A stretch of 64,000 bases of DNA, from contig CAJQUW010005729.1 in the NCBI GenBank assembly GCA_907163375.1, positions 62,001 through 126,000 of the forward strand. The letters run 5' to 3'. The notes under the pieces are model-generated. The model did not search any database, was not told the origin of the DNA, and saw only the letters and a list, made by a program, of their open reading frames with translations. The DNA is from Prostheceraeus crozeri. Its lineage: Eukaryota; Platyhelminthes; Polycladida; Euryleptidae. Below are positions 2,914-51,705 of this stretch, one piece after another; the stretch's first letter is position 1; each line of letters starts with the position of its first letter. Both the position numbers and the translations under genes were made by a program.

Positions 2914-3137
2914 GCATTCATGATACAAATAAATCGAGAAAACTGAATCATAACCTTGTAACAGCAGATTATGCAAAACCGCATTGCCTTCCATCGTCTA
3001 AAGTGATCTAACATACGTGGCTCTCAATATCCCACAAGAAGATTGTCTGCATTGAAAATTATCATAAAGGAACTATCAAGAAAATGGAACTGATGAACAC
3101 GGAAGTTTTGCCACAAGATACTCTGTTTGTGAATAAA

Positions 3138-3248
3138 GGAATTATAGCTATCTGTCGAGGGCATAAATTGGAAGATATCTTATCCTAGGGTGGACAGTGC
3201 ACGAGGATATCTTCGAATTTATGCCCGACGACAGATAGCTATAATTTC
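3138..3248. repeat. Variable-arm hairpin with GGGCA/TGCCC shoulders
   Basis: The left arm 3138-3185 (AATTATAGCTATCTGTCG, GGGCATAAATT, GAAGATATC) folds onto the right arm 3203-3247 (GATATCTTCGAATTTATGCC, CGACAGATAGCTATAATT). Pairing is nearly complete over more than 40 bp. It sits directly left of a repeat unit (3255-3535) whose second copy at 25320 has a different hairpin in the same place. Confidence 0.75.
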
Positions 3249-3254
3249 TATTCA

Positions 3255-3535
3255 TGCCTGAACCATGGACTCTTAGATATTGGCCATCATTATAGCGACG
3301 TCATGACTGAACTAACATGGATTAAAAAAACATTTTTATGACGTAGTCCATAGATGTCGATGAACGAGTAATAGCACTGAAATTATTGTTTGAAATAAAT
3401 ATATATGAAAACAGAGGGCATAAATGGGAAGCTGTAGCTACATTGAAAATACATTGAAATTGGCGAGCATAAATTGGAAATTTCCGATTTATTCCTGACA
3501 ACTTTGATAGAATGCTATGATGTGAGGCATGAATG
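3255..3535 (+). repeat. Dispersed repeat, copy 1
   Basis: Shares a long collinear match with 25320-25605. Landmarks are CATGCCTGAACC, GACGTAGTCCATAGATGTCG, ATGAACGAGTAATAGCA, and GGCGAGCATAAATT corresponding to GGCGGGCATTTATG. No coding capacity is visible. The unit ends near a GATGAATG-type boundary that also precedes the MITE at 3608. Confidence 0.75.
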
Positions 3536-3607
3536 AAGATATATTACCTTTCAAATGACAGCCTACGCACTGACAATTTAGACTAATCATTTGAAAGGTA
3601 ATATATG
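3536..3607. repeat. Short hairpin beside a MITE
   Basis: ATATTACCTTTCAAATGA at the left pairs with TCATTTGAAAGGTAATATAT at the right. A sequence equal to the left arm precedes the related MITE at 41693, but there the right arm is missing. Confidence 0.65.
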
Positions 3608-3967
3608 CATTGTTACTGAACTAAAAATCTATGACATCAAAAATCCAAGATTTTGATCTGCAAAAGACTCAAATCTATGATAATTTTCTACATAGCCCAT
3701 GCAGCTCAGAACATTGAAATATGTCAAGCTTGAGATATCTACGAGTCCAAATTGTGAACCATAGGAATCATCTCAATGTCATTTTCACTGGGAATGCGAA
3801 GATGGATGGTGAAATGCTCCTACCTCAATGGTATTGCATGACAAATTAGACGGCCTGAATCATGCAATTAAGGTCGTCTAATTTGGAATTGGAGATATAT
3901 GAACGACTTTCATAGAAAAATGACATGTGAAATATCGGCTGACAACCCTACTTACTCAGTAACAATG
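3608..3967 (+). mobile_element. MITE with TIR CATTGTTACTGA, copy 1
   Basis: Begins CATTGTTACTGA and ends CTCAGTAACAATG, so the ends are inverted. Its 360 bp are collinear with 41693-42054. Inside, AAATTAGACGGCCTGAAT and its partner near GGTCGTCTAATTTGG form a second inverted repeat. No clear target duplication flanks it. No protein is encoded. Between 3968 and 5532 I see no gene and no well-defined repeat apart from a short match (about 4010-4100) to 9122-9160. Confidence 0.7.
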
Positions 3968-11402: not shown

Positions 11403-12160
11403 ATGAACAACGACAAAAGACAAACCAGATCAAATTCAGCGATGAGTTTGTCCTCTGGTAATGTTTCCCTCGAGGGAATTCGACTTATTGTTGACGAATC
11501 GAAGCATGAAGTTTTGGAGTCCATACAATCGGTTCGTAAGGAGTTCGAGCAACTACGCGGTGACCTTCGGTCCCTTAGTGATCGGATCACAAAAATTGAA
11601 GGAACAATTGCAAATTCTCAATCTGTGCAAGAGCACCATCAGAACGAGATCGTCGAATTGAAGTCAGCAGTTGAGGTTCTTCAGTCTTCAAGTGTTAATA
11701 GCAACATAAATGACATTTCGAAGAAATGGAGGGTCGTGAAAAACGACGGAACAACGTTATGGTATTTGGTGTGCCCGAAAAATTGGAAGGTAGTTTACAA
11801 GACCACAAGAACGATGACAAGGCTGATCTCAAGACTATTCTACATTGTGTCGGTGTTAGCGAGACCGAAGTGTTTAATGTGCAACGCTGTGGAAAATTCA
11901 ATCAAAAGAAGTCAAGGCCGATAAAAGTGACATTGCAAGACAGACATTTTAGATTGAAGTTTCTGCAAAAAGTCAAGGATCTGAGGACCAATGTTCAGTT
12001 TCGTGAAATTTATGTAACCGATGACTTAACTAGGTACCAGCGGCACCAGAGGTACTTACTTCGACAAGAATTGCGACGTCAACGGGCTGGAGGAGCTGAT
12101 GTGGTTATTTACAAAGGTAGAATTCACACAAAGGAATCTTTGAAAAATTTTCCAGTTTGA
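11403..12160 (+). pseudogene. LINE-A ORF1, one frameshift
   Basis: L1-ORF1-like nucleic-acid-binding protein of the nearly complete LINE-A. The ATG at 11403 opens a basic N-terminus, followed by a coiled coil (SIQSVRKEFEQLRGDLRSL and onwards). Near 11725 the reading frame shifts by one base: the first part ends around DISKK, and the RRM-like part resumes in the next frame as RRNNVMVFGVPEK and runs to the TGA at 12158-12160. The C-terminal GGADVVIYKGR matches VVIYKN in LINE-B ORF1. The stop overlaps the start of the ORF2 open frame (TTTGATT). This suggests ORF2 is translated by reinitiation or another linked mechanism, because no ATG begins ORF2 there. Confidence 0.8.
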
Positions 12161-17900: not shown

Positions 17901-18806
17901 CCGCATGAAGGTCTCATCCGACAATTATCGATCGCTAAACTGCCGAATGGTTTCATCAAATGGTGTAAGGACTATTTTTCAAATAGATTTCAACGCGTAC
18001 GTCTGCCTGATGGCACTCTAAGTTTGAATAATTCAGTTGCATCTGGAGTCGCTCAGGGATTGGTTCTATCTCCTTAATTCTTCTGTGTGTATATAAGTTC
18101 ACTCAACAAACTATTACCATCATCCGAAATATACAAATATGCCGATGATGTTGTTATAATCTCCAAGTTTTCAGACTCTGATGACATCGATATAAGTGTC
18201 AATACCGAAGTACGCAATGTTCGTGAGTGGTGTGACAAAAATGGACTGATCTTTAATGACAATAAAACCAAGCTTATGCTTATCGGATCTAACAAGTATA
18301 GACGCTTACCTATAACATCTATCCCCATTCTTGGTGTATTTTTCGACAAAATTGCAAAATGGAAGTCTCATATCAACTACATAGCAAAGAGAGCATCACA
18401 GCGCATACACCTGCTCAAGACTGTTCGTAAGATTCCTTCGATACGCAAGCAGGATCTCATTCAGATTTATACGCAAATGATTCTTGGTGTGATTGAGTAT
18501 AATTGCCCGCTGATGGTCGGAATGACAGCTTCATCTTCGACAATATTGGAGAAAATACGGAAACGATGCCATCGAATAATATGTGGTACCACCTGTAAAC
18601 GCGAATGCCTACCCAGTTTAGAAGAAAGAAGACCGCAAAAGGCCTTAAAAGTGTTTCGCTCTACGCTAGTGCAAGGACATATGCTCAACAAATTTGCTCC
18701 ACGCCGATTGACTTATTCAGGGAAATTTGCTGTACCACTCTCCCGAACTAAACGTCGGTCTCTTTCGTTCTTCCCCTTTTGTATAAAGTTGTTTAATGCA
18801 ACGTAA
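14926..18806 (+). pseudogene. LINE-C ORF2, 5'-truncated and split by a transposon
   Basis: The second LINE of this family, truncated at its 5' end inside the endonuclease domain and starting exactly where the LINE-A ATT tail stops. The left part (14926-15230) carries IIVGDLNAPPTQ, LNILDKIIID and AKTDH. The right part (16836-18806) carries KPWMTPKIK, KSPGSDGISSYILK, LRPISLLPIMAKILEKV, FDLSRAFDRIPH, SGVAQG and KYADDVV. A 1605-bp element (15231-16835) separates them. Apart from the duplicated CTG, the frame continues across it. One in-frame stop lies at 18075-18077, between the VAQG motif and FCVYISSLN. The protein resembles LINE-A ORF2 throughout but is clearly diverged, so it belongs to a sister subfamily. 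The 3' UTR and (ATT)n tail run to about 18915. Confidence 0.85.
15231..16835. mobile_element. Harbinger-like element, copy 1, inside LINE-C
   Basis: Starts GGGCCTGTTTCATAA and ends TTTGAAACAGGCCC. CTG is present on both sides (15228-15230 and 16836-16838). Removing the element and one CTG leaves the LINE-C endonuclease frame continuous, so the boundaries are firm. Copy 2 at 38696-40504 has the same ends, the same CTG flanks and a collinear interior (for example CAAACTATTTGTCAGAATGG). PIF/Harbinger elements make 3-bp duplications, but usually TWA, so the superfamily is inferred. No transposase is encoded. This copy is full of long A and T runs that copy 2 lacks. Confidence 0.85.
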
Positions 18807-25319: not shown

Positions 25320-25605
25320 TATTCTAGGAGTCCATGCCTGAACCAGGGATGTCTATGAAACATAGAAAGTGTTTTTCGCACCTTCATGCATCCCTGCCTG
25401 AACTGTCATGGATTAAAAGATACTTGTGACGTAGTCCATAGATGTCGATGAACGAGTAATAGCATTGAAATGATCATGTTTGAAATAGACATGAAAATGG
25501 ATGGCTTAAATGGGAAGGTGTAGCTCCATTGAAAATATATATATGAAATTGGCGGGCATTTATGCCCGGTAACCTTGATGGAATGCTATGATGCGAAGCC
25601 ATGAA
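25320..25605 (+). repeat. Dispersed repeat, copy 2
   Basis: Collinear with 3255-3535. Starts near CATGCCTGAACCAGGG and contains GACGTAGTCCATAGATGTCG and GGCGGGCATTTATGCCCGG, itself a small perfect hairpin where copy 1 has a diverged version. No coding capacity. Confidence 0.75.
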
Positions 25606-28675: not shown

Positions 28676-29694
28676 AAATGACTGTAGTAGCTAAAGCTTA
28701 TTTCTTAACATTCTTAACATGGATTTCAATAGGGCCTACTTTAAAACAAGCCTTCGCAAAGTAATTTTGATGATAGTGAATGTCCTATAATTCCAGTCGA
28801 TGACTTATTTGCATGATAAATTATGATATTAGGCCTATCACCTCTTCTTTCGATCCGTGTTATCGCGTTGCGTACTTGTATATCTCATCTGCCAAATCTC
28901 GTTCATTGTACATAACCATTTTATCACTCATATCATCATGAATGCTTCATCGTGTTCCAAATTGGAAATAAAGGTTTTGATTTTTGACTATTATAATGAT
29001 GTCCCATTTGTGCCTCTCTCATGTCATAGGAAGATCATCGCTCATCGCCTTTTTTAGACGTTAATTTACGACGCCACTCAACCACTCCACATCTTGAGTT
29101 TCCTATTGAAACATTCGCGGTCAAACTTCAACTTCCAATTTCAAAAATTCCTCTACGATCAAGAAAATTTATCATTTCTATGTCGAAATTATTTAATAAA
29201 CGTTTGTTACTTTTTTCTCCACGCTTGACTTTCCAGACTTCTTGTGCTCTTCTTAAATGTTGAGAACAGTGTCTTATGTTCATCACTTCTACATGCATGT
29301 TGCGTTTCTTTGTTAGCCCCACTATTTCCATCATTGGGGCCACCAGCATCTTGAAAAATAGTCATCATTATTACTAACTAGCCCAATTCTGCAAGACATT
29401 CGGCAGGGAATTATTAAATCAAACATAGTGTAGAAAAAATCCAGTTTGGTATGCTTGTGTTCTTCTTTTAAATGACTATGGATATGTGTTTGTCTGTGTC
29501 TAGGTGCAAATGCAAAGATTGGTGGAAAAGATGATCTCTCTCTTTCTGTCGCTTGATGTTCGCGTTTTTTATTCCTTTACACCACAGCAAGTTCAGTTAC
29601 TGAGTCAAGACGCAAACAAGCGCACGAATTTCGATTTTAATAAGTATTTTTATATTTCACAGTTCCATAATCTCTATGATAACTGCTTCCATAA

Positions 29695-30692
29695 TGTAGC
29701 ATTATATGATGGATTTTTAGGGCAGTAATATCAGACATAGACGAGGCTGCGTTAGCAGCCAAGACTGTCTGATATTTCTGCCCGCAAAATCCATGATGCA
29801 GTGCTATTGTATGTAGCTCTTGAGAAGTCTATGAATATTGCAATTCTTGATCACTTTTGATCACAGATAATGGAGAGATGAAGAATAATGAAGTCTTTGA
29901 TTGACTTTTATTGAAGTCTATGAAAGTTTGCTCTCTCAATAGATGGTAATTCATGAAAAGTTTGAAAGTCTATGAATGTTTGCAATGTGGATAGATTTGA
30001 AATTCAGATTTCTATCTAAAAATTTGAAATATCAGTTTACCAATTCATTCATTAAGGGATTCTCAAGCTGGAGTCACAGACGACGGTTTATGGCTATCTG
30101 GTGCGTTGAGAATTCTATGTGAAATTGGCGGGCATATAGTGATGCATTGTATTTCACTCTCGATGGCTTTGGAAGTCACAGAAATGATTGAAATGAGTTT
30201 GAAATGCATTATTGTCCGGTATTGGAGGGTATATAATGCACCATTAAACGCCCGCCAATTTCACATAGAATTCTCAACGCACCAGATAGCCATGAACTGT
30301 CGTCCGTCACTCCAGCTTGAAAATCCCTTAATGAATGAATTAGTGAATTGATATTTCAAATCATTTTTAGATAGAAATCTGAATTTCAAATCTATCCACA
30401 TTGCAAACATTCATAGACTTTCAAACTTTTCATGAATTACCATCTATTGAGAGAGCAAACTTTCATAGACTTCAATAAAAGTCAATCAAAGACTTCATTA
30501 TTCTTCATCTCTCCATTATCTGTGATCAAAAGTGATCAATAATTGCAATATTCATAGACTTCTCAAGAGCTACATACAATAGCACTGCATCATGGATTTT
30601 GCGGGCAGAAATATCAGACAGTCTTGGCTGCTAACGCAGCCTCGTCTATGTCTGATACTACTGCCCTAAAAATCCATGATATAATGCTACAT
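29695..30692. repeat. One-kilobase composite palindrome
   Basis: The arms, about 29695-30133 and 30249-30692, are near-perfect inverted copies of about 440 bp around a 115-bp centre. Each arm contains its own hairpin. The left one (29699-29803) is TGATGGATTTTTAGGGCAG, TATCAGACA, loop CGAGGCTGCGTTAGCAGCC, then TGTCTGATA and CTGCCCGCAAAATCCATGAT. The centre is also self-complementary at its edges (GAAATTGGCGGGCAT and ATGCCC-like partner GCCCGCCAATTTC). No protein is encoded. Such similarity between arms implies recent formation or ongoing correction. Confidence 0.85.
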
Positions 30693-31039
30693 TATGCCGG
30701 GCAATAATGCATTTCAAACTCATTTCAATCATTTCTGTGACCTCCAAAGCCATCGAGAGTGAAATACAATAAAATTTCTGCTTTTATTTAAAAAATGCTT
30801 GGATTTCAAGGAGTGCAATAAACCGTCTTCTTTCCACTCCTTCATTGAAATACATTAGCACATAGAAATTTTCTCATCCTCTAAGTCGGTAAATTCTACA
30901 TGGAAATCTCAAGAAATGCCGTTGATATCTGCAATTCCATAACAAATAGAGGAAGATTTTTAACAGCATAAAATTCATGTAAGAATTCAATGGAATCATT
31001 GTGGTCATAGATATCTGCGGATCCTGTGAAATATATACG

Positions 31040-31370
31040 ATGAGTATCTGGTGCGTTGAGAATTCTATGTGAAATTTGCTGACATATAGTGGTGTATTGT
31101 ATTTCACTCTCTATGGTTTTGGAGGTCACAGAAATGATTGAAATGAGTTTGAAATGCATTATTACCCGGCATTGGAGGGTATATAATGCACCATTATATG
31201 CCCGCCAATTTCACATAGAATTCTCAACGCACCAGATAGCCATGAACCGTCGTCCGTCACTCCAGCTAGAGAACCCATTAATGAATGAATTGGTAAACTG
31301 ATATTTCAAATCATTTTTAGATAGAAATCTGAATTCAAATCTATTCACATTTGCAAACATTCATAGATTA
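31040..31370 (+). repeat. Partial copy of the palindrome centre and right arm
   Basis: Direct repeat of about 30097-30410: CTGGTGCGTTGAGAATTCTA, GAAATGCATTATTACCCGGC, TATATGCCCGCCAATTTCAC and onwards to AAACATTCATAGA. The spacing from the first copy is about 960 bp. From 31380 to about 32420 there is no gene or repeat that I can support. Confidence 0.8.
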
Positions 31371-32419
31371 ATAGTGAAATATAAAGTTAGTTGTGCAACT
31401 CGTGCGAAGATATCGGTCTTAATTGCATTATTCTCGATCGTACATAAGCATGTTGATCTCGAAAAATGCAATGAAGATGAATTATTTGCACTTGTTGGAA
31501 ATAACTATTCCCTTCATCCTTTCCTATATTCATAGATATCCTCGTGTGAATCTATTTTGAATCCATCTTATCTTCTCCATCATTGTCTTAATCAAGACAT
31601 CTTGTAATCAGTTTGAGGCACAGGTGATTTCCGTGCTCGATCTTTGCAAATCCACGATTGAGTGGACGTTGAAAATAATTCTATTGAATGTTTTCCGCAG
31701 TCGCCTGAATGATAATATGGAATGGCAGGAATTTTAATTCGAGACACTAAATATTTCCATCCATCCAAGTCATCAGGAAGAGAAAACATTTCTACAAGCG
31801 ATGAAGATGTTTCGCCTGCCGTGAACAAAGTATGACTGGAACATGAAGAAATATGTTATCGCTGCATATTTCGAAAGTGACAGAGATGTTGAAATTTTGT
31901 ATTGTGTTGTACATTGTCAATTACTTTCTTACACATTGAAAGATCCATCGGATGAGAGGCTCATGAATGATTTATAAATTTCATGTCAAATTCCATTAAT
32001 TCCATCTTGTTGAATTTACGACCCGGAGTACGTTGAAATATTTGACCAATTTAATTATGCATATAAGCAAGCACAAGTCATTTGGGGTTTCGTTTCAATG
32101 TCTCTGAATAAACATGAAATTCCCCTTAGGTAATATTTGTCGCAACATTGCATCCTTGAATAACAGTTTGAACTGTGATCTAACGGATTCGCAAAGAATT
32201 TCACCACCTTTGAGTGAGGGATGTGGATGGGGGATGAGGGACCTAAAATATGATGATATCCGCAAACTGCGTTTGAAAAAGGATTTTGAAAGGAATTGTC
32301 TTGAAATCTGCTTAGGCATACTGTAATGGGCTGAGTATTAACTTGTATTGCTTTCTGTATGTTGATGCCACACCGTGTCTGATGGATATGGTTATATTCA
32401 GGTTAAAATATATGATCTC

Positions 32420-33345
32420 TTAATTAAGCGGAAATTAAGCTGATTATCAAGGGAAATTCATGAACCGCATTATAATGGAAGTCTTCATGGCAAAGTTGAG
32501 ATCTTATCGTGCTTCTTGACTGAAATTTCAAGCTTTTAATTCAATTTTCATCGGCATGAGTTAATGATTCACTAAATGTGAGCCTCATTTCTTGTCTGAA
32601 ATATGTGAACAGTGATGTGGAGCTATTTGCATCTTTTAAACTATGCCATTTAGCATAGAAATGAAACTAATTAGCTAAGAGAATGAAAGTGGAGTTGTCA
32701 ATTTCGCATTTTGAAATATGTATTTCTATGAAAAACTTGCCTCAATAGATAGTCCTTTTACACATTGTTAATTTGACCTGTTAATTTGCCCGCCAATCAT
32801 AGAGATAAAAGTGGCATAGTTTAAAACGGTTAAAGGAGGATTCAATGATATTTACTGAGATATCTCGATTGACATCTTGTTAAAATCCCTAGGGAATTTT
32901 AACAAGATATCGACCTCATTATTTCAGTAAATATCAATGAATCCTCCTTTAACCATTACTTAAAATTAATTATGATCATCTTTTTTGACTATAATATTTT
33001 GCTCTTTCAGTGATAGGTAGCTTGTGATATGATCTTCTGTGAGAATAGTGTTCTTTAGTTAGAATATATCTTCTGAGAATACTCGTCGTAAGGCTGAGCA
33101 TTGAAATATTAGTATTTTATTCAGCAAACATTAGCAAATATTACTTCTCTGAGTCATGACACGGAGGAGTTTTAAAATACTATTATTCCTTTTGTGTTGC
33201 TGTCATGATCGGTCAATTCCGTGGCAATTTCCTCAAAACTGCAACAATTTGCTTATCTCAGATTTCAGTACTGGGTCTCAACTCGAGTTCATTTAATAAA
33301 ATCGAAACTGAGTCGCTACATCGCCTAATATACCTGTTCGATGCC
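32420..33345 (-). mobile_element. M4 element, truncated, with hairpin insertion
   Basis: On the minus strand it matches the M4 copy at 39411-40249: AATGAACTCGAG, a ATTTCAAGT-like block, CATTATAATGG with ATGAAGACTTCC-like flank, and AATTTCCGCTTAAT. The M4 left end (here at about 33345) is mutated. The right end is missing. A hairpin (32828-32954) and some other sequence interrupt the middle. An 83-codon plus-strand ORF at 33205 crosses the M4 edge and is not believed. Confidence 0.65.
32828..32954. repeat. Perfect-looking hairpin with 63-bp arms
   Basis: GGTTAAAGGAGGATTCAATG, ATATTTACTGA and TTGTTAAAATCCC at the left pair with GGGAATTTTAACAAGATATC, TCAGTAAATAT and AATCCTCCTTTAACC at the right. 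The axis is CCCTAGGG, so there is practically no loop. A few mismatches lie in the middle of the stem. It sits inside M4 sequence. Confidence 0.8.
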
Positions 33346-34281
33346 GTGACCCTAAATCACTGTCATTCATGCGACATAGCACTCGAAATAGACGGAAACA
33401 GATACATGGTGGAAATCGAATATGCTGATTTTGTCGTTTTTTTTAAACCGAGGTAATCATTTGCAACGCAGATTTCTTATTTTCTATTTCCGGTCAGAAA
33501 AACAGGTAAGAGCAAATCGTAACTCTGAGTATTGAAGGTTCTTGCTCTCTAATTTGATTAATTTAATTTTCTTGGTCTATATCATATGTTACCGGGTCTC
33601 AACTCAAATTCATTTTAAAAAATCGAAACTGTATACACATTGGAGCCAGTTCATATGGGGAATTGAAACGTCTGTGTGAAGATAGAGGAAATGGAAGAAA
33701 ATTGAGACGAACCCTTGAACAATGACTTTGCAACTCTTTTCACATACATTCTTGTAATTTCGGGCCCTAATTAACTGTCCAATGATGTTTTCGATCGCTG
33801 GCTAACGTGAAGCTCAATGCGTCTAGGAATTTCATCAGTTCCCCAATACCGGGGGATTGGTTTAATGCTAGCGTTTTTTGAATGTCTAAAACTGAAGTAT
33901 TACGAAGCTGACGTTTTAAAACGTGGAATATTATTCGTTCATCAGGAAGTCGTACCCAAAACCACATAATCGCGCTGACGTGGAATTACCCTTTCTTAGT
34001 TGAGAAAAGCTGATTCGTCGCAGAGCAACAGCGTCAAAACCAAAAGCACAGAAAAATATCAGTTACAACTCATAAATAATCAAAAAACAAATCCGGCTCA
34101 GCTCACAAAACTAAGACAAATAACCATCTTGTCAACTATTCCAAAAGTTCTCGAATGATTTATGGTCCGGAAATTGAGCGATCTTTTGTAGAAAATCAGC
34201 ATGGCATCAGGAAAAAAACATTTTTTGATAAAAATATTTTTTTCGAAAAGTATTGGCCTTTTTGTCAATATTATTGTATAT

Positions 34282-34676
34282 ACACTAGGTGACATGCCAC
34301 GCGTAATTACGGAACACCCCAACCATCCCTGGTTAAGGACATTCTATTCTTCTACCCGCGCACATGCGCGCTGCACTAAGAGTCAGAAATCACTTGATCT
34401 GATGCAGTTAAAACATGGGGAATGTTTATGAATACGCGCGGGCGAGCGTTTATAGTTTGCGCGTCGTCTACGGTTGTCTGCGTTGCCGCTTGAACCACGG
34501 ATGAACCGCTAATCATGTTCTGTCTTCACTGAGCATGAAATTGAGGTCCTATCACATTGTTTAGCCTCTGATACATGCAGACACATGAGATGGAAAGTCT
34601 TTATAACAGGACTGCCGACATATGTTTAGGGTCATGTGTAATTACGTGTAATTGAGCGTGGCATCTCACCTAGTGT
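34282..34676. mobile_element. MITE with TIR ACACTAGGTGA
   Basis: Left end ACACTAGGTGACATGCCACG and right end CGTGGCATCTCACCTAGTGT are inverted over about 20 bp with one difference, and an inner TAATTACG is also mirrored. The length is about 395 bp. No clear target duplication is seen, so the superfamily is open. The interior contains a CG-rich stretch (CCGCGCACATGCGCGC) but no coding frame. The flanks 33350-34281 and 34677-35430 hold no gene that I can support. Confidence 0.65.
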
Positions 34677-35429
34677 TGTAGTCTACGAATTTTTTGCTTA
34701 CTTGATGAAAAGATTGTGTCGATTTTATTGCTTTTATGCAGTCAAATTTGGAAACATGAATTTTTTATTTGAAGTGTGGGAATTAAGAAGGACAAAAATG
34801 CAAGCTATAAATGAACAAATTCCAATAATAATAGCTGCTTAATTCAGTGAAGCATTTTCTATTATGTGAGGCACCTGATTTTCTCAATTTAGCAAGTACG
34901 AAAGCTTTCAAATGACAAGCATTCTATTGAAATAATAATTTGATTCATATTTTAACTAATGCTTTGATAATGCATTTTATTTTTGATTTTTGCATTTTTT
35001 TTAATTCAAAATAAAAAAGTTGAAGACTTTTGGGGCACCCGGTAGAAGTGTTTCCATTCACTACCAATTCTTCTACAATGCCAGTTTCAAATTCGCTGCT
35101 ATTTGTGTACCTGAAACGAAAAAGCAGCCTACTTGGATAGTTGTTTTAGATAGTTGTTATTACTTTCATGCCATTGTTGACCGTTTTTGTCAATGCCAGC
35201 TTATGAACTCTGCACATTTGGTGACATTTTCGGATGGCATCTTTTTGACATAATATTTGCTGTTTTTGAAAATACTTCGAAGTTAGTTAAATGTGGCAAA
35301 GTTAGTATACTAGACTCGGCGAATAGATGTGAGTTCTATGCAAGTTTTGTTGTTAGCTTCGCTGATCACCTGCACTCAAGCAGGTGAAGAATGCTCTTCA
35401 AAATTATTTCATTTGCTTTGTAATGATAT

Positions 35430-36998
35430 GGAAGTGTTGAATCGCTCATGGAATGACCATCACTGGCAGAAAGTCTTGTGGACCGATGAATCGAGATTCA
35501 CTCTGGATTTCAATGACGGTCGTGTCAGAGTGCATCGTCTTCCAGGTGAACGCTTTGCCCCATGCTGTATTAATCCTCAGAGACCTGAAGGGGGTCCAGT
35601 GGACCCCGGGGCCACATTTTTCTATTTCATTTTTTACGCTGACGATATGTCAACCACTCAAGCCCATACAAAATCATCATTTCTGACAGTGAATCTGCAT
35701 GTGTTATTTCATTTCAATTGAATCAGTAGAAGTATGCCAGATAGGTCAAGGGGGTCCACTGGACCCCCCCCTCAGGTGTCAAAGGGTGCAGAAATTCCAT
35801 CACAAAATTTTTGTAATTAGATGAAAAATGATTTCGAACATGTCCACGATGGTGTATAAAGAGTGAAAGTCATTTATTCATTGTTTGCATCATGCTCGTA
35901 GATGTGCAATGTGTTGGAAGATCGCAAAATGTGAATATTTTGCTTTCGCACATGATCTCGCGTGACTGGTTGGCCTATATGAACAACTCGACATAAATCG
36001 ATGTCCGAAATGAAAGCTATCATTATATTCATAGTTGAGCACCAAAAACTGATTGATGACAAACTTTTCACAGCAGTAATGATAAGTTTGAGATCTCCAC
36101 AGCTGTTTTTGGTTCTAGAAGCACAGCAATTTTGACTCATTTTAGGTCTATTTCTGATAGCTTTGGATAAATTTGAAGGAATGTACAAATGGAAAGGATT
36201 AGCTGCATGAATTAAATCAATTTCATCAAAATCAACTATCTGAGGCTTTATGGTGACACAAAATATCGTAAAGCCGCCTCCTAGTACAAATGATGCTGTA
36301 CTAAATGTGGTTGACTTACAAAAACACCATATTTTCGCACGTGTTTACTAAGAAGGCTGAAAGTCACTCAAGGGATTCGTTATACCGACCTGCTACACGC
36401 AAACATCATTGTTTTACTTAAAATCAACTTTCCTAATGTTTTGATATCGATTTAAGCAGGTAAACTAAAAATATGTTAAAGGGGTCCACTGGACCCTCAG
36501 GTCTCAGAGGGTGTGAAAAAGCTCAAGTCTCTGAGGGTTAAAGAACACGACAGATATGGTGGTGGAAGTGTTATGCTGTGGGGTGGCAATTGGCATGGCG
36601 GACGAACGACAGCAGTCATCATCAAAGGCACGTTGACTGGAGAGAGGTATCTCAATGAAATTGTGCTTCCTGTTGTTGCCCCAGTGGTCAGGGTGGAGGA
36701 TCTCATCTTCCAAGACGACAACGCAAGACCACATCACTCCTCGGCTGTCATTGCCACTGCTAGGAGATTGAACATTCAAACCCTTGACTGGCCTGCACAC
36801 TCACCTGACTTGTCACCCATTGAACAAGTCTGGGACGAGCTTGGGCGGCGAGTGAGAGACGGCTATTCACTTCCACCAGTGTCCCTAAAGATTCTCTCTG
36901 AAAGACTGACAGAGCAGTGGCTTCTCCTTGAAACACCCGTCATTCAGAAACTTTGTGAATCCATGCCATCTCGGATTACTGAATGTATTGGATACTAG
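35430..36998 (+). pseudogene. Tc1 transposase, 5'-truncated, interrupted
   Basis: DD34E transposase of a Tc1 element, which cuts and pastes DNA at TA sites. The N-terminal DNA-binding part is missing. The catalytic core is present in two pieces. Piece 1 (35430-35573) has WQKVLWTDESRFTL with the first Asp and GERFAPCC. Piece 2 (36538-36998) has KEHDRYGGGSVMLWGG, FQDDNARPH with the second Asp, and HSPDLSPIEQVWDELGRR with the Glu. There are 34 residues between the second Asp and the Glu. A 964-bp element with TTAA on both sides (35574-36537) splits the pieces, and without it the frame is continuous. The frame ends at TAG 36996-36998. The catalytic core shows no other break, so the insertion was probably recent relative to 5' loss. 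Confidence 0.9.
35574..36537. mobile_element. piggyBac-like non-autonomous element
   Basis: Flanked by TTAA at 35570-35573 and 36538-36541, the target duplicated by piggyBac elements. The inverted ends are TCCTCAGAGACCTGA and TCAAGTCTCTGAGGG. The palindrome GGGTCCAGTGGACCC, or its variant with ACT in the centre, occurs near the left end (35597), near 35752 and near the right end (36481). No transposase is encoded, and ORFs on either strand look like chance. The host Tc1 frame is restored when the element and one TTAA are left out. Confidence 0.85.
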
Positions 36999-37594
36999 AG
37001 GGAGGCACACGCGCTACTAAAGCTGAATCTGCTACATGTGTTGTTTTTCTGTGCTAGCGACTTGATGGAGATTGTGACTAAATTATCAAGGTATCATACA
37101 TACATGTATATATACCACTCAAAAATGAAAGAAGTTAAAGAAGTAAATGTTTCAAATATTTTGTCAATGAGCATATAAGGTGTGACTAAAAATTATTGAG
37201 ACTTTTATGAGAGAAGATGAAATAATATATCTATGGTCTGAAATTTGATGTGTCGTGGTAAAGTAGCGTTTTAGCAATTATCTGACAAAAGTTTGAGTCT
37301 CTCCGATTACAATATTACATGATTATCGCTGATTATCATAGATATGCAAACGTTCGTACAACGATGCAGGAAGGACTTGGTACTTTCCACATAGAGAGAA
37401 CATTTCATTCTTACCAAAAACTTCAGTCTGCCTCCCATTGGATTTACGAGTGCTTTTTTTGTTCTGTCTGACAAGAAGAGGAACTAGGAAGAACTCGGCA
37501 GACACGCAGATTCTTAATGTTCACAATGCGTGCTGCATGCTGTGATAGTTTCATTTTCGGCCTCGTGTTGGCGGCTGATCAAGATCGTTTTATC

Positions 37595-38479
37595 CACAGA
37601 ATTAGATTGTTTAATCGCATCACTTTGCTAGAAGTGCAAACTGATTCAAACAGATGGCACATGCAGGAACTTAATAAGTGAGCAAAAAGAAATTTTTAAT
37701 ACCTTACAGAAATAGGAAAAATAGTCGTGCGTCGTTTGCGGATTGCTCTGAATTCCTTCCGATCCAATGAATTCAATGAATTCCTCCGATCGCAATGATT
37801 CCTTCAGATTCGAAGAATTCAGATCATTGCGCAAAGGTTTTCTCGATCATGTTGGGCCCTCCGATTATTTCAAAAAAAGTTAGCAGGCGCATGAAAAAAC
37901 GTTCACAAACTTCTCTGTAGAACTTGACATCGTCTGTCTCTTTGCTGTGTGATCCGGTTGATAACAGTCACTGAAGCTTTGCAAAATTTGGCGTATTTAG
38001 TGTTGAACTGGCTGCTCATTGTTCGATTGCTATGGCATTTAGTCAGCAGATTGTGCCATTTCATTAACGTTACATGTTCCCATAGAAATAAACTGTTTAT
38101 CTTAAGTTCGCTAGAATGGAAATTGACTCAAGGTCGCGGCACATTCGGGGGAACTAAGTTGGGGCATGAAGAACCAACTAAAAGCTTCGATTTACTCATG
38201 TGACTGATTCTAACCCAATGATACAGACGTTGGCAGGTGCATCTAAGTAAAAATGCGTGCGATTTATATGCCGTTATTGTGCATTGCATGAAGATTAAAT
38301 TCCATTCTAGTGGTTTTATTGTTGTCAATTTCTATGCATGTTCCAATGTTTCCCTTCTAGTCAAATGGAAGAAGAGACGACCTGTCTAATTCTGTGATCG
38401 TGCCATTTCATTTACGTTACATGTTCCAATGCGTCACTTCTAGTTAAACAGAAGAAGAGACGACCTGTTTAATTCTGTG
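37595..38479 (-). mobile_element. M1 MITE, 885 bp, with nested M2 and tandem end
   Basis: Flanked by a perfect GTTTTATC at 37587-37594 and 38480-38487. The ends are CACAGAATTAGATTG and GTTTAATTCTGTG. It is longer than other M1 copies for two reasons: an M2 element with its own duplication sits inside (38081-38336), and the last 80-100 bp with AATTCTGTG are present twice in tandem (ends at 38396 and 38479). The flanking repeat proves that the outer end is the one used for insertion. The region 36999-37586 before it holds no gene. Confidence 0.9.
38081..38336 (+). mobile_element. M2 MITE nested in M1, perfect TSD
   Basis: A 256-bp element with CATGTTCC on both sides (38073-38080 and 38337-38344). 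The uninterrupted M1 sequence TTACATGTTCCAATG is seen in other copies, so the empty site is known. Ends are CATAGAAATAAACTG and GTTGTCAATTTCTATG. Confidence 0.92.
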
Positions 38480-38695
38480 GTTTTATCACAAATCTAATCA
38501 AATATATATTATTTTTACATAGCTTCTATATGACATCTCATTATATGTCGTTACATGAATCAAATTTGGGATCAAAATTGTATAGGATGTCCCGAAGTCA
38601 ATAAACGCTCGAAATGCGATTTTACAATATTTTGCAGTCCCAATCTGTTGAAAATAAAATTCAATTTTTCACTGGTTACAATTACACAACACCTG

Positions 38696-40504
38696 GGGCC
38701 TGTTTCATAATATAAATCAGTGCTTTATATCAGTGTGGAAAATTTTCTGCGTTTCATAAAATAAATATAAAGCAGTGACATAAAAAAGTGATTGAAAGCA
38801 GTCGAAATTAACAGCGTTTCACGAAACCAAATATTAAGCAGTGATTTATATCAGTCCCACACTGCTTAAAATCAGTATTTTAAGCAGTCTGGAAAATAAT
38901 TGCGCTTCACAAAGAAGTATCAGTAGCGCGCGAAAATTGAAAATATGGAAATTCACTGATAGAAATGTGAAAATATCAACATCTTGAGGTTGATAAATCT
39001 GTGAATGATCATCGAGAAAGTTATAGAAACTTAAAATATCGGAGAAATGATTGCAAATACAACTTAAAAATGGGAAAACGGCTTTTGATTTTCAATTTTA
39101 CTGTCAGTAACAAACTATTTGTCAGAATGGTAAATTTGGATACTGTTTATTGAAAAATTGATCCTTTGAAAAGTGGCAATGCTGTGACGATAAAACGTCC
39201 GGTAACAGCAAAATTATAAAGGGTTGCTTTGAGGGCTTCGATTTCTTTCGTGTAATGAGGTACGGCATGTCATGAAATCATTTCAATATTAAAAGACGTT
39301 GAGGTATTGACTTTTACATACATCGATGACAGCTAGAAAAAAAGATTTTCAAATATTCCACCATTTGCCTTAGATTGACTTCTCTAATTATTATTTCAAT
39401 TACTGTCAAACATAGAGTAGGTATATTAGGTAGAGTGGAAACTCCGCATTTATTAAATCCCCAATGTATATACACTTTCGATTATTATTAAATGAACTCG
39501 AGGTGAATACAGTTGGAATTGTCTCCAAATGTGAGATATGCGCATTTGTGCAGTTTGAAGAAATTACAACGGAATTGACTGATTATGACAGCATAAAGCA
39601 GATGGAAATGAGATTATTTTACAGATTGTCCGTGTCATGACAGCCTCGGATCGGTAATGTTTGTTAAATTAGCAACTCGATGACCCTATTGCTTTCATGC
39701 TTAACCACAAGAGAATCTTTTTAAGCGCGATCTTATCTCAAGCAGCTGGTAGAGCAAAATAACAGAATCAAAGACAATGATTTTCATTAACTTTGAAAGA
39801 TGTAAATGGGTGCACATCACTATTCAGATTCAAGAAGTGAAACATGAATTTACTCAATCATAAATTCATGCCGATGAACATTGAATCAAAAATATGAAAT
39901 TTCAGCCACGACAGCAGAATAAAATCTCAACTTTTTATAAAGACTTCCATTATAATGCCGTTCATTACATTTTCTTGATCATCAGCACAATTTCCGCTTA
40001 GTTGCGATGCTTGTTAGCGAATATTCATTCCTTTTGATATCCAACTTGTTTCAACTGTTGATATTCAACGGGGAGTCATGTCGGTAGTAATTAAATTGGC
40101 AAATATAGAGGTTTTTCAAAGCTGCTCAAATAATGTTTTGGACCGCAGGCACGTAATCTCCGAAAAAAACTGAATCTTTTCATATAAAAATTTTCACTGT
40201 ATACAGATACTTTTTTAAGTCAACACTCTACCTACATATTTACTCTATGCTGTCAAAAATTATTTTATTTACGAAGAATTATCCAAAATTGTTTTAATCA
40301 CTCAATCACACTGATATATATCAGTGTTTTCATCAGTCCGAAATCTTTATGAAACGCTATATGTATCACTGATTAATTTAGACTGCTTAATCTTCAGTCG
40401 GAAAATTAATTTTTATGAAACGCAATTTAAAGCAGTGCTTTATATTTCACTGCTGAAATTGTTACTGATACATATCAGACTGCTTAATTTTATGAAACAG
40501 GCCC
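38696..40504. mobile_element. Harbinger-like element, copy 2
   Basis: An 1809-bp element starting GGGCCTGTTTCATAA and ending TTATGAAACAGGCCC, with CTG on both sides (38693-38695, 40505-40507). Near each end are many copies of short motifs, TATATCAGTG and TTAAGCAGT, in both orientations, which is how transposase-binding sites are often arranged. An M4 element with its own target duplication lies inside (39411-40249). No transposase is encoded. Confidence 0.88.
39411..40249 (+). mobile_element. M4 element, complete, 8-bp TSD
   Basis: An 839-bp element with CTGTCAAA on both sides (39403-39410 and 40250-40257). The inverted ends are CATAGAGTAGGTATATTAGG with TAGAGTGG, and CACTCTACCTACATATTTAC followed by TCTATG. 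It is the only full M4 in the window and defines the family. Remnants are at 32420-33345, 48291-48990, 51706-51796 and 54471-54920. No coding capacity. The 8-bp duplication fits hAT or P-type transposition. Confidence 0.9.
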
Positions 40505-41045
40505 CTGATTAAGCAAATATTTATGTAATCACGGAAGTAAACATAACAGTTGCATGGCAGGCGTCAAGCGTTAACAAATTTTGTCAGCATGTGGCTCAGG
40601 AAATTTGCGATTGAAGAAATATCTGAAGTTTTGAATGTTCGCTTCATTTACGCACTTGAGGTATGAAAGATAGCTGTGCAGTGAATGTGGATATATTTGT
40701 GATTGATTCATTGATTGGCAACAGCTCGGCAGGTTTTCACTGTCATTGTACACTACAATGCCTGGATTGATTAAAAAAGTGAAGTTATCGCTATGAAATA
40801 TCCGTGAGAATGACATTTACTGAATGGTAGAATGGGAATAAGAGATAATCTTGCGAAAGGATTGTTGACATATTGAGAAAAATGTTAAATGTACTTTTAT
40901 CGTGGTCGCGGAAACGTCTTCATAAAAGAAAAATTGGAAGATGATAAAATTGATTTTGTTATTTCCTAAAACAGACCATTTCTAGTGGACGTAAGCAGTG
41001 AGGAGGAGGAGGCGGTTTGGCAAATGTAGACAAGTGTGTGGGAGA

Positions 41046-41301
41046 CATAGAAATAAACTGTTTATCTGAAGTTGACTAGAATGGAAATTGACTCAAGGTC
41101 GCGGCACATTCGGGGGAACTAAGTTGGGGCATGAAGAACCAACTAAAAGCTTAGATTTACTCATGTGACTGATTCTAACCCAATGATACAGACGTTGGCA
41201 GGTGCATCTAAGTGAAAATGCGTGCGATTTATGTGCCGTTATTGTGCATTGCATGAAGCTTAATTTCCATTCTAGAGGTTTTATTGTTGTCAATTTCTAT
41301 G
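41046..41301 (+). mobile_element. M2 MITE, 256 bp
   Basis: Flanks GTGGGAGA (41038-41045) and GTGCGAGA (41302-41309) match at 7 of 8 positions. The interior is almost identical to the copy at 38081, including TTGACTCAAGGTCGCGGCAC and GTTGGGGCATGAAGAACC. Ends are CATAGAAATAAACTG and GTTGTCAATTTCTATG. Confidence 0.9.
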
Positions 41302-41463
41302 GTGCGAGAAGTCAAGTGCGGATGTCTCCGCAAACACTGTGATTCATACCATGCTCTGAGATAGGCACGATCCGTTATCAAAAGTTGCTGCATTTCTGTA
41401 GTAGACTCCTATCCATTATTTGATGATAAGTCGTGTAGCAACAATAGGATCTTTACGAGGATG

Positions 41464-41606
41464 CGCTTTAGGAAGCAATGTTCGTGAGTATGGCAATGTT
41501 GACACGATGTCTATATGACATTGTCTTCGCTCGTTCTACATTTGCAATGAGTATACACGAGTACTACTAACATTGCTATACTCACGAACATTGCTTCCAA
41601 AAGCGC
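41464..41606. repeat. Variable-arm hairpin
   Basis: CGCTTTAGGAAGCAATG, then TTCGTGAGTATGGCAATGTT at the left pairs with AACATTGCTATACTCACGAA, then CATTGCTTCCAAAAGCG at the right, giving about 36-bp arms. A GATGTCTATAT at about 41507 is mirrored just outside the right arm as ATATAGACATCGCG. It precedes the repeat that leads into the MITE at 41693. Confidence 0.75.
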
Positions 41607-41692
41607 AATGTTGAATATAGACATCGCGCTTAGCTATAGGAATGAAGATATATTACCTTTCAAATGACAGCCTAAATCGTCGGCGCGTAGCG

Positions 41693-42054
41693 CATTGTTA
41701 CTGAACCTAAAGTCTATGACATCAAGAATCCAACATTTTTATCTGTAAAAGACTCAAATCTATGACAATTTTCTTCATAGCCCATTCTTCATAGCCCAGA
41801 ATGTTAAAGTATGTCAAGCTTGAGATATCTACGAATCCAAATTACAGGTCATAGGAATCAATCAATGTCATTTTCATTGAGAACGCGAAGATGGATGGTG
41901 AAATGCTCCTACCTCAATGGTATTACATGGCAAATTAGACGACCTGAATCATGCAATTAGGGTCGTCTAATTTGGAATTGGAGATATATGAACGACTTTC
42001 ATAGAAAAATGACGCGAAATATCGGCTGACAACCCTACTTACTCAGTAACAATG
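41693..42054 (+). mobile_element. MITE with TIR CATTGTTACTGA, copy 2
   Basis: Starts CATTGTTACTGAACC and ends TACTCAGTAACAATG, collinear with 3608-3967. The left outer flank (GAAGATATATTACCTTTC) also matches copy 1, but the right flanks differ, so the true unit may be larger on the left. Confidence 0.7.
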
Positions 42055-42240
42055 TTATTAAGAAATCATAAAATTGAATCAAGCCATAGATTTACAGAGA
42101 TATCTAGCCAAGGTATCCGTGAAATGAACATCTTTGGCATATGAATGCAATTTATCAGCGACATTTATTTAAAAGTGATGCTAAAATAGTAATGTTAAAT
42201 ATCTGATGTTAAACGGTTTCAATTCACTCACTGCTAAAAT

Positions 42241-43333
42241 CAGTGGCGTCTTCTCCGTACCTGCGAGGCCTTCGGCGCATCCTCAAAAAATAATTTTCCA
42301 ACTATTATGAAAATGAAAAGTGTCATCATTCATTTAAATTCGATAGCTTCTCGTGATAGCTGTGCACAGCTTTCCGTCTCAAAGTCAGACGCTCAACCTC
42401 ATTGAACAGTTTTGCAGCACGTGCTCGAATCACAGCTGTTTTCTTCGAACAGTTAGACACACAAGCTAGTCGTGTGTTCAGATGGAGCATTGATGTTTAA
42501 ACAGAGCGAAAGAAAGTTGTGTGTGTGAGGCAGTAAGCGCACGCGCCCGCGTAAATATTGGCTTCTCCGATATACATGATGTTTTGCCTTCTCCAATTTT
42601 TCCAATAAAATTCTACGCGATTCTTGATCAAGGCGCGGTATCTAGATATAGTAAGGGAAGCGCAACCCAATTGTTCCTGGATTCACTTTATGTCAGAGAG
42701 GCCACTACGTCAGCAGTAGCAGATGGCTGACGTTCAGAGAAGACTGCGATCAGATGATGAGCGTTCTCCAATGAATGCAGAGTAATGCATCTGACTCGAA
42801 TACCCAGATTCGGTAGAATTCCATAATTTGTTTTTACGTGATTGATGTGACACTATGTTTAGTACTGCAGATGAGATCATAAACACGCCTTTCGTCCGAA
42901 GGGAATATACTGAAAAGATGACAGTCGTCAAGCAAGGTAGGCCAACACCTGATGTAAAAATTTAAAGTACTCACAGAGAAAGAAATAAGAAATACACAAC
43001 ACATTTTAATGCATCAAAATTTCAAACATGTGAGTGGCTGACCGGCCGTGAGAAACGCAAGGAACTGTTGACCTTGCCTCTTTTTTCTCGAGAAAATGTG
43101 GTCTGGACAGAGAGGGGATATAGTTATCTCAGCTCCTTGAGTAAGGCGGTTAAGAGACATGAGCAATCACTTCTCATGTGCACATTCACTTGGCCTTAAA
43201 AAATGTTCGGGAAATTGTTATTAAAAATTCAACTTTTATGAAAATTAATGTTGTAATATAAAAGTGTCTGGTATAGAAATAGTATTCCAATGCCGAGTGA
43301 AGGCCTATGGTCTGGGCGCATGGGACGCCACTG
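42241..43333. mobile_element. hAT-like non-autonomous element, perfect TSD
   Basis: A 1093-bp element with GCTAAAAT on both sides (42233-42240 and 43334-43341). The ends are CAGTGGCGTC and GACGCCACTG, the CAG..CTG type common in hAT elements. A second mirrored block, CGAGGCCTTCGGC against GCCGAGTGAAGGCC, lies just inside. Interior ORFs (for example 42521-42730) are short and show no transposase motifs. Confidence 0.9.
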
Positions 43334-43660
43334 GCTAAAATCTATGTCAACTATTTAACATAGAAAATGTCAATTTTTCAATTACATTGACTAGATATAG
43401 ACATATTCAACATTATCAAACTCCCTTCCTATCTCCACTATGTTGAACTATGCGTTCTACATTTTCTAATGTAGAACGGAATTTCTATGAATCAAAATAC
43501 ATGTAATCCAATGGGCTACCGTGCTACATTTTTTTACCCTACAATGCACCCAAATTGCAAGTAAGCTTAGATGATGTCTTGGGTATAGATAATAAGGCTA
43601 CACCTCATGCAAATGCCAGTTAAATATCGGTTCACTTGAAATTCAAATGAAGGAAATGCA

Positions 43661-43707
43661 CATAGAAGTAGATAATAGTACTTTCTATGGTATTGTTAAT
43701 TTCTATG
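43661..43707. mobile_element. M3 mini-element of 47 bp, perfect TSD
   Basis: Only the two element tips remain: CATAGAAGTAGATAATAGTA, then CTTTCTATGG and TATTGTTAATTTCTATG. GAAATGCA flanks both sides (43653-43660 and 43708-43715). The tips are the same as in the 3.6-kb M3. Confidence 0.88.
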
Positions 43708-43828
43708 GAAATGCATGACATCAATATTGGATAGGCTATCTACTAGGACCACGTTTGTGTTCTTAGCAGATTGTCTATATCGTCACTGGTCCATAGAGTT
43801 CATTGACATTTCTTGATCGTTTGATAAT

Positions 43829-43933
43829 AGTGATATAACTACTCCATCTGTACTACCATAGAAAGATGTAGCACTCGGCTTCGCCTCGTGCTACATTTTC
43901 TGTGGTAGTACAGATGTCGTAGTTATATCACTA
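43829..43933. repeat. Variable-arm hairpin with CTCGGC..CTCG loop
   Basis: TAGTGATATAACTACTCCAT, CTGTACTACCATAGAAA and GATGTAGCAC at the left pair with GTGCTACATTTTCTGTGG, TAGTACAGATG and GTAGTTATATCACTA at the right, 45-bp arms with few mismatches. The loop is CTCGGCTTCGCCTCG, whose complement reads CGAGGCGAAGCCGAG, the same core as the loop at 29740 (CGAGGCTGC..GCAGCC). Confidence 0.85.
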
Positions 43934-43947
43934 TAATATAACATTAA

Positions 43948-44036
43948 CATGGATTTTTGAGGGCAACAATGTAGGACATTTGAGGGCACGCAAGCGCCTG
44001 AACATGTCCTACATTGTTGCCCGAAAAAAGCTATGT
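43948..44036. repeat. Adjacent hairpin with GGGCA/TGCCC shoulders
   Basis: ACATGGATTTTTGAGGGCAA, then CAATGTAGGACAT at the left pairs with ATGTCCTACATTG, then TTGCCCGAAAAAAGCTATGT at the right. The loop is GAGGGCACGCAAGCGCCTGAA-like and GC-rich. It lies only 14 bp from the preceding hairpin. The outer motif ATGGATTTTT.GGGCA also occurs in the hairpin at 29699, though the inner arms are unrelated. Confidence 0.85.
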
Positions 44037-44856
44037 CAATACTATTGTGCGTAATTGAAATGAACTGGACAGCAATGCTATGAATAGACATGTACATGTA
44101 GATATACGCTGATTGAGATTTCAAAAATGTCTTTCACATGCATAGATAGAGAAATCATCATTACGGGATACATTGAACCATAGCTCAATTACGCACAATA
44201 ATTGATGCACAGTAATGTCATTGCAATAAATTCAAATATTCAATTACTCCGTAGAAATCTATCGACACATAGAAATGAAAATAATACAAACAGAGACATG
44301 AACAATGAAATGTTCTTTTATACTGCGAGGGCTTTCCAATCCCTATGGAGCAGCGGGTAAATTCTTTCTTCTGTTTTTATTCTTGAAGGGACTTTGGCAA
44401 TTGCAATTTGCTTCATGTTTATATCTGCATGATCTGCAGTACGTCATAGTTTCAAACATATCACCGATTAACAATTTTTTCACGAGAACGATTACTGCAA
44501 TACATTCACGGCTGTGCTACAGTGTTATTATTCAGGCTACCAAAAAAACGTGCAAAGCAGCTTCCCCAAATTAACCTGCACGCCGACACGTGTAAAAATT
44601 TGCAGATTATGAATTATTACCAGGGGCCTAGCCAGAGGAATGGCAACCCTCGCCTAATCGGAACGCCGTCAAACGCAAATGTATCATGCTCGGCGCACAG
44701 ATTTTCTTTTGTAGCTAATCATCTTGCTACTTCAGATGTTTCTGAATTTTAGTTTTAAATTTTGTTTTAAAGAAAACCCAAGCAAAACGTTGTGTTTCTT
44801 GATAGCCGTCTATAGTATTAGAACCTTTCGTCCCTGCAGGCGAAGGTCATACTCAC

Positions 44857-50143: not shown

Positions 50144-50340
50144 CATTGCTTTAACACAGGCACGTGGAGGGCCTAAACAAAATGAATAACTAATGCTTAT
50201 TTATACTCAGATCGCACAGAAGCACATTAAGCGAATGCGTTTCTTCTATGTGATTACGTTTTATTTATCTCACTTCTCATTCCTGTGTGCAGAGTGTCAA
50301 GAAAAACGCAAAGTGTTCCTATTTTAAATGTCTTTCATTA

Positions 50341-51389: not shown

Positions 51390-51705
51390 TCGATCTGAGT
51401 ATAAGCAAGCATTAGTTATTTATTTTGATGAAAAAGCGGAGGCTGTCTCGGTTTTTCAAGTATTCGAACAGCTATCTGTTCAGTATCAGGTTTGCCGCTG
51501 AACATTAGCAATATGATGACTGCACATTGATTTGACTGCAACCAGAAAGGAGTGTTATTAACATTAACCTAAATGGAATCTTGAACTCATTTTATTTCAA
51601 CAGTGCTGTGAGCTTAAATGTTTTAGGTGCTCTCTATTCCATCTAGAAGTTTAAGCACAAATATAAGCATTCATATTTATGGTAACAATACCCAACTGTA
51701 TCCCT

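Follow-up and report, generated by a model that had tools for sequence, protein, structure and literature searches.

Why do several hairpins in one stretch of flatworm DNA seem to share their loops and shoulders while their long, well-paired arms differ? An earlier note on a 64,000-nucleotide stretch of the Prostheceraeus crozeri genome (contig CAJQUW010005729.1, positions 62,001 to 126,000; hereinafter referred to as the window) raised this question and proposed that either arm may be recopied from its partner, or that a mobile unit captures new sequence and duplicates it in inverted form. Positions are those of the window, and whole-genome searches covered the 2.05-Gb assembly that contains it. 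The hairpins at 29699, 43829, and 43948 are referred to as H, J, and K, respectively. On balance, we favour with moderate confidence the explanation that these hairpins are defined by their shape and form the ends of non-autonomous elements, probably of the rolling-circle type, in which template-switch rewriting plays a minor part.

The hairpins of the window are real and exceed chance: 16 reached a score of at least 30, whereas none of 10 first-order Markov shuffles yielded more than one (0 or 1 each). All five that had been singled out (3138, 25553, 29699, 43829, and 43948) were present as described, and their loop letters and GGGCA/TGCCC shoulders agreed with the description. The features of J are as follows.

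43411..43937, minus strand: J element, about 527 bp in this copy, with its far end near 43411; boundaries taken from the family, with ATTATCAAAC at 43412 and the hairpin-end motif at 43913-43933
43824..43937, minus strand: terminal hairpin of J, with arms of about 45 bp
43874..43888, minus strand: loop of J, CGAGGCGAAGCCGAG, with a tandem G.A mismatch and a GGC-GAA-GCC tip

The exact 15-nt J loop was found at 454 places in the genome, against 2 for the reversed control. A total of 77 places were examined, and their arm families were sorted by hand. Among the first 50 occurrences, at least one arm scored as J in 42, a figure that takes in half-copies; one of these (L257) is the same place as L275, a copy of the J relative J'. 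All 9 places with C, G, or T before the loop (2 in the control) were read, as were all 24 in which the loop follows an A that itself follows A, G, or T (0 in the control). The loop was carried by J and J', by V (7 places), by Q (13 places, six of them broken), by U (4 places, one of them a half), and by one further hairpin, L231, the exact tip being common to J, V, Q, U, and L231 by way of discovery. The left arms of these five showed no likeness beyond shuffles, the lowest value being 22 of 300 (V versus L231). J' is a relative of J (none of 300 shuffles reached their left-arm score), and a distant link between Q and J' is possible. That link aside, the proposed class of many arm clusters on one loop holds elsewhere in the genome, with five arm families. 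Within the window, H and J both turned out to be members of repeat families whose arms match, an outcome that the earlier note had named as speaking against its proposal. The literature searched yielded no account of a single exact tip carried by different terminal arms.

Half-hairpins ending at the loop edge or within one base of it were found for J (L236, L244, L292, and L302) and Q (L287, L294, L298, and L300). L236, L292, and L302 run into one common sequence, as do L287 and L294, so that there were fewer events than copies; breakage at hairpin tips may have produced them. L236 and L302 were also considered as autonomous partners of J and were dropped, both being copies of one longer repeat region.

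The repeat family of J is young, with a unit of about 551 bp. Most copies span about -50 to about +501 bp from the loop, a few being shorter, and the copy pairs compared were 99.1-99.8% identical. The outer flank of the hairpin was unique and the other side conserved in 37 copies of J, 7 of Q, and 6 of V; the hairpin is the outer end of a conserved unit in these three families. The H hairpin, whose terminal position was judged by eye, likewise forms the outer end of a longer repeat. The stem-loop stands at one terminus only, and the J unit continues on the other side of it, with 11-bp inner inverted repeats, TATTATCAAAC directly inside the hairpin and GTTTGATAATA at the far end.

Fifteen J element ends with both flanks, including two tandem junctions and two loci (L223 and L246) with one target repeat in common, showed no target duplication of at least 4 bp at the boundaries as seen; at any offset tried, at most one of the 15 had such a duplication. 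For comparison with the TT or T-rich insertion sites of the Helentron type, T stood beyond the far end in 10 of 15, and A at -4 of the hairpin end in all 15. No poly-A tail was seen, by eye, at the J far ends inspected. Head-to-tail J junctions were present in L263 and, three times, in L284, with an extra base in one junction. Further, J loops lay 546-547 bp apart on three contigs (C1193, C1928, and C2254), and an H tandem of 466 bp was found in L137. Tandem arrays are a sign of rolling-circle movement. Separately, the J copies of L223 and L246 occupy the same position in what looks like a single host repeat, from which an empty site might be obtained.

Arm letters changed while pairing was kept. 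When J was set against the consensus of five J' copies, both arms had changed in 7 columns, mismatches were retained in 3, and 5 columns were of other kinds, with 0 cross-pattern columns; single J' copies carried 5 to 8 paired changes. The tandem G.A mismatches stayed in J and J' while flanking pairs changed. Among internal loops, for which symmetric or near-symmetric ones were read by hand from predicted folds, GA opposite GA was found in J (1), J' (2), V (1), and U (one of two), and Q and L231 likewise carry GA on each strand; in the internal loop of H, TA faces GC. Unusual stability is a property of tandem G.A pairs and of tips of the form C-GNA-G or C-GNNA-G. The J tip contains GCGAAGC, and the d(GCGAAGC) DNA mini-hairpin is said to be extraordinarily stable (PMC10527192; PMC4686876); it is known as a chemical motif, whereas here it may serve as a common transposon end.

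Searches of viral contigs gave no match to the exact H loop and one to the J loop with flanks. With any base allowed in the GNA position, the J loop matched at least 120 stretches. Among the matches listed, at least three complementary flanking bases were found at 14 of 123 usable occurrences, against 98 of 5,000 re-paired controls, making short pairing about six times commoner than in the control; no long arms were found among them (longest run, 5). A longer loop pattern turned up in 10 stretches of GTDB genomes and in a single stretch from viral contigs, and none of these 13 occurrences had long arms by eye. Two matches of viral contigs to the H/K shoulder pattern were taken as chance.

From this material we infer the following scheme. 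A folded form would be what is conserved between families, namely a C-GAA-G or C-GNNA-G tip above a tandem G.A mismatch (CGAG opposite CGAG), together with arm pairing and, in many cases, another tandem G.A loop lower in the arms, the arm letters being free. The most likely mode of movement would be a rolling-circle one like that of Helitrons, in which the hairpin, presumably recognized as a folded strand, acts as end or stop signal. Arm pairing would be upheld by compensating changes, which may underlie most paired differences, and occasional template switching or snap-back copying may let one arm template the other.

Known systems offer a partial precedent. Helentrons and HINEs are described with a one-sided terminal stem-loop and inner inverted repeats (PMC4067079), and Helitron2 with a similar layout (PMC5148889). 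J shares with Helentrons, HINEs, DINE-1, and Helitron2 the subterminal inverted repeats, the stem-loop at one end, and the lack of target duplication, and such elements are often mistaken for miniature inverted-repeat transposable elements (MITEs) (PMC4067079; PMC5148889). The 5' hairpins of Fusarium FoHeli1 and FoHeli2 have C-GAA-G tips, as in J. The Helentron type differs in having short palindromes, in contrast to arms of 45 bp in J and about 65 in Q, and an inner repeat 38-60 bp from the hairpin end, in contrast to about 110 bp in J. Canonical Helitrons share the 3' hairpin and the lack of target duplication, but in J the hairpin itself is the terminus. Palindromes in nematomorph mitochondrial genes (PMC6649704) played no part in the comparison.

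The Helitron Rep domain (PF14214) had 51 matches in the genome, five of them in open frames of >1,000 amino acids, and none in 14 control genomes. One Rep-domain family, with two copies 99.3% identical over 2.9 kb, was read to its common 3' end, which has a C-GAA-G tip. Thirteen Rep-domain remnants stand in tandem on contig C998 (158128-191624), about 2.7-3.0 kb apart.

The features of the H family are listed together with those of K.

29690..29813, plus strand: terminal hairpin of H, a repeat family with copies genome-wide
29742..29760, plus strand: loop of H, CGAGGCTGCGTTAGCAGCC, with a GTTA tip
30573..30696, minus strand: second H hairpin, inverted, with 2 differences from the first
29690..30696, no strand assigned: near-palindrome of 1,007 bp with an H hairpin at both ends and arms 91% alike
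43933..44055, plus strand: K hairpin, a diverged homologue of H that adjoins the J terminus

The 19-nt H loop was found at 146 places in the genome, against 0 for the reversed control. Both loops are far commoner in the genome than their controls. The likeness between the H and J loops was not significant on window data alone (shuffle p of 0.11 for 29699 and 0.08 for the inverted copy; 91 pairs). A total of 82 H-loop places were read (80 fetched and two in the window). By alignment score, 60 of them had both arms of the H family; the remaining 22, several of which were half-copies, were examined less closely. At four of these 22 (L143, L153, L165, and L198) the loop stood on other arms, termed W, and the H loop is carried by two arm families. 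All eight consensus or example hairpins fold; W, which pairs only moderately, was the weakest folder.

The arms of K had been called unrelated to those of H, but the full-length H-K alignment scored 71, against a maximum of 43.5 for 5,000 random window stretches. The unrelated arms of the window, including the apparent difference between H and K, arise because the comparison there pits different families or old relatives against each other. In the outer arms, H and K matched at 23 of 26 positions on the left and at 23 of 31 on the right, and in the inner arms at 8 of 13 on either side. Pairing within the H and K hairpins was 12 of 13 and 13 of 13 in the inner arms and 20 of 29 and 17 of 27 in the outer arms; combined, the inner arms were alike at 25 of 26 positions within copies and at 16 of 26 between copies. 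Rewriting of the inner stem would produce such a contrast, which rests on 13 pairs and on the alignment chosen. With MAFFT, the arm test gave 3 paired, 4 side, and 1 cross columns in the outer arms and 4, 0, and 0 in the inner arms; a hand-made alignment with two more gaps gave 0 paired and 4 side columns in the outer arms, so that the inner-versus-outer test depends on the alignment. In L226 (about 1970-2130), a K-like hairpin without the loop lies directly past the far end of a J element; the window K adjoins the hairpin end of J.

These relationships bear on a rival account, in which the hairpins belong to conventional cut-and-paste MITEs whose terminal inverted repeats are long and imperfect, with loops common by descent from one old element and arms diverged past recognition. 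J and J' diverge with compensation, H and K are homologous yet differ in their inner arms, and none of 300 shuffles reached the Q/J' left-arm score, a likeness that more time could erase. J lacks the combination expected of such elements, terminal inverted repeats at both ends with target duplication: its 15 ends are free of duplications, its hairpin stands at one end of a unit that extends on the other side, and its copies form head-to-tail tandems. We consider this account unlikely.

Rewriting of one arm from the other, the process proposed in the earlier note, was examined in the H family and in a pair of repeats.

3531..3967, plus strand: repeat copy with the hairpin 3539-3606 at its end, in which 3563-3606 matches the reverse complement of 41648-41690 of the paralogue (86%), as a copy of it
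41640..42054, plus strand: paralogue of 3531-3967 that lacks the right arm and has an inverted loop

Three diagnostic positions separate the left from the right H arm in the 60 copies. The family state was kept in 44, single or mixed changes were found in 12, and the right arm was wholly left-type in four (L174, L206, L208, and L210). The clearest case, L210, forms 53 uninterrupted pairs, among them a private change and the loop flank, which is normally mismatched; two bases are unpaired, only near the outer end, and its right arm looks as if it had been rewritten as the complement of the left, as snap-back synthesis would give. Deriving 3531 from 41640 by one four-point template switch scored 187, against 94 for a collinear alignment and 127 for the best of 60 shuffled inserts, which were searched on a coarser grid. 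The pair shows one reverse-complement copy with return, and either copy may be ancestral.

Template switching between inverted repeats is an established process (PMC8604942; PMC8794818; PMC7954356). The mutations described there resemble L210 and the 3531/41640 pair in arm homogenisation, loop inversion, near-perfect stems, and origin in one event; they account for arm likeness, but not for one loop on different arms. Rewriting is supported for L210 and the 3531/41640 pair, and by the paired changes between J and J', but not as a rule, given the 44 unchanged H copies. No homogenisation was found in the 30022/31040 palindrome family (X), which gave a 10/7/3 pattern, and no mismatch gradient toward the loop over 14 hairpins (outer, 24 of 325; inner, 37 of 325). 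A further observation is a 37-bp segment (50178-50214 and 51391-51427) inverted between two 90% alike copies of a repeat that is tRNA-like by eye.

If snap-back or template switching were the main force, the folded strand would need no function. L210, the four left-type H copies, the score of the 3531/41640 pair, and the H/K inner arms all speak for such a process, with the reservation that the four copies could stem from one event or retain an older state. The tandem G.A mismatches of J and J', which persist despite changed flanking pairs, argue against it, as do the unchanged H copies, the X family, and the missing gradient, and we regard it as decidedly unlikely. That the folded form acts as RNA rather than single-stranded DNA, for example as a 3' stem-loop like that of a short interspersed element read by a reverse transcriptase, would fit the one-ended hairpin, the paired changes, the recurring G.A loops, and the non-long-terminal-repeat (non-LTR) reverse transcriptases of the window, but is highly improbable in view of the exact head-to-tail junctions and of J ends free of target duplications and, by eye, of poly-A.

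Several results weigh against the favoured explanation of shape-defined rolling-circle ends. One of the five J' copies (L229) has one cross-pattern column. Outside the diagnostic positions, H changes were confined to one arm in 111 cases and shared in 2 (L178 and L210), with a chance expectation, estimated by hand, of 0.5. Within-family loop conservation cannot be judged, because the loci were chosen by exact loop. Among 28 pairs, the left-arm score was reached by 0 of 300 shuffles for Q versus J' and by 11 of 300 for Q versus H. The 5' TC and 3' CTRR ends of canonical Helitrons, whose hairpin lies about 11 nt inside, were absent at the J ends examined, and the palindromes of mite HINEs measure 5-10 bp, against J arms of 45 bp. 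The 3' end of the Rep-domain family is a short GGAC-GAA-GTCC hairpin, unlike that of J. No autonomous partner of J was found, one Rep-domain family of the 51 PF14214 matches having been read to its end; since that family lacks the ends of J, the type of mobilisation is one that we infer.

The remaining hairpins of the window are as follows.

25552..25567, no strand assigned: mini-hairpin, the 3457 palindrome minus its centre
3130..3254, no strand assigned: hairpin at 3138, with no detectable relation to H, K, or J
41462..41607, no strand assigned: hairpin with a possible, weak relation to J

The 25553 mini-hairpin, cited earlier for its matching shoulders, exists, yet it is a shortened copy of another repeat (3414-3534). 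The shoulders themselves were dropped as a signal: GGGCA and TGCCC occur 27 + 25 times in the window, and base composition predicts about 47 by a hand calculation. The alignment score of the 41462 hairpin with J was equalled by 8 of 5,000 random stretches, and this kinship was put aside as weak. The C-G(N)NA-G form was found in 40 of 2,645 small tri- or tetraloop tips of the window. It occurs in H and J, and in K only under one of two predicted folds; H and K being homologous, the window holds two independent cases. Rfam and tRNA scans gave no match. Apart from hairpins, the window contains broken non-LTR reverse transcriptase genes (12157-14763 and 16848-18806), whose best named relatives are Branchiostoma and Asterias proteins with 28-29% identity, and a DDE transposase fragment (PF13358; 36513-36998). 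A second protein search gave no match.

A wider reading, which we put forward tentatively and do not hold to be probable, is that animals may harbour a rolling-circle-like superfamily defined by the shape of its terminal hairpin, a C-GNA-G or C-GNNA-G tip with tandem G.A modules, and not by its sequence; new, self-copied arms would arise under an old tip by snap-back from the stable tip. It is not settled how the ends of a transposon can alter in sequence and still be served by the enzyme with which they are partnered. With a single exact tip borne by several arm families, and in hundreds of copies, this genome offers a natural experiment on enzyme recognition, and in individual copies such as L210 the rewriting of an arm seems to have been captured as it happened.

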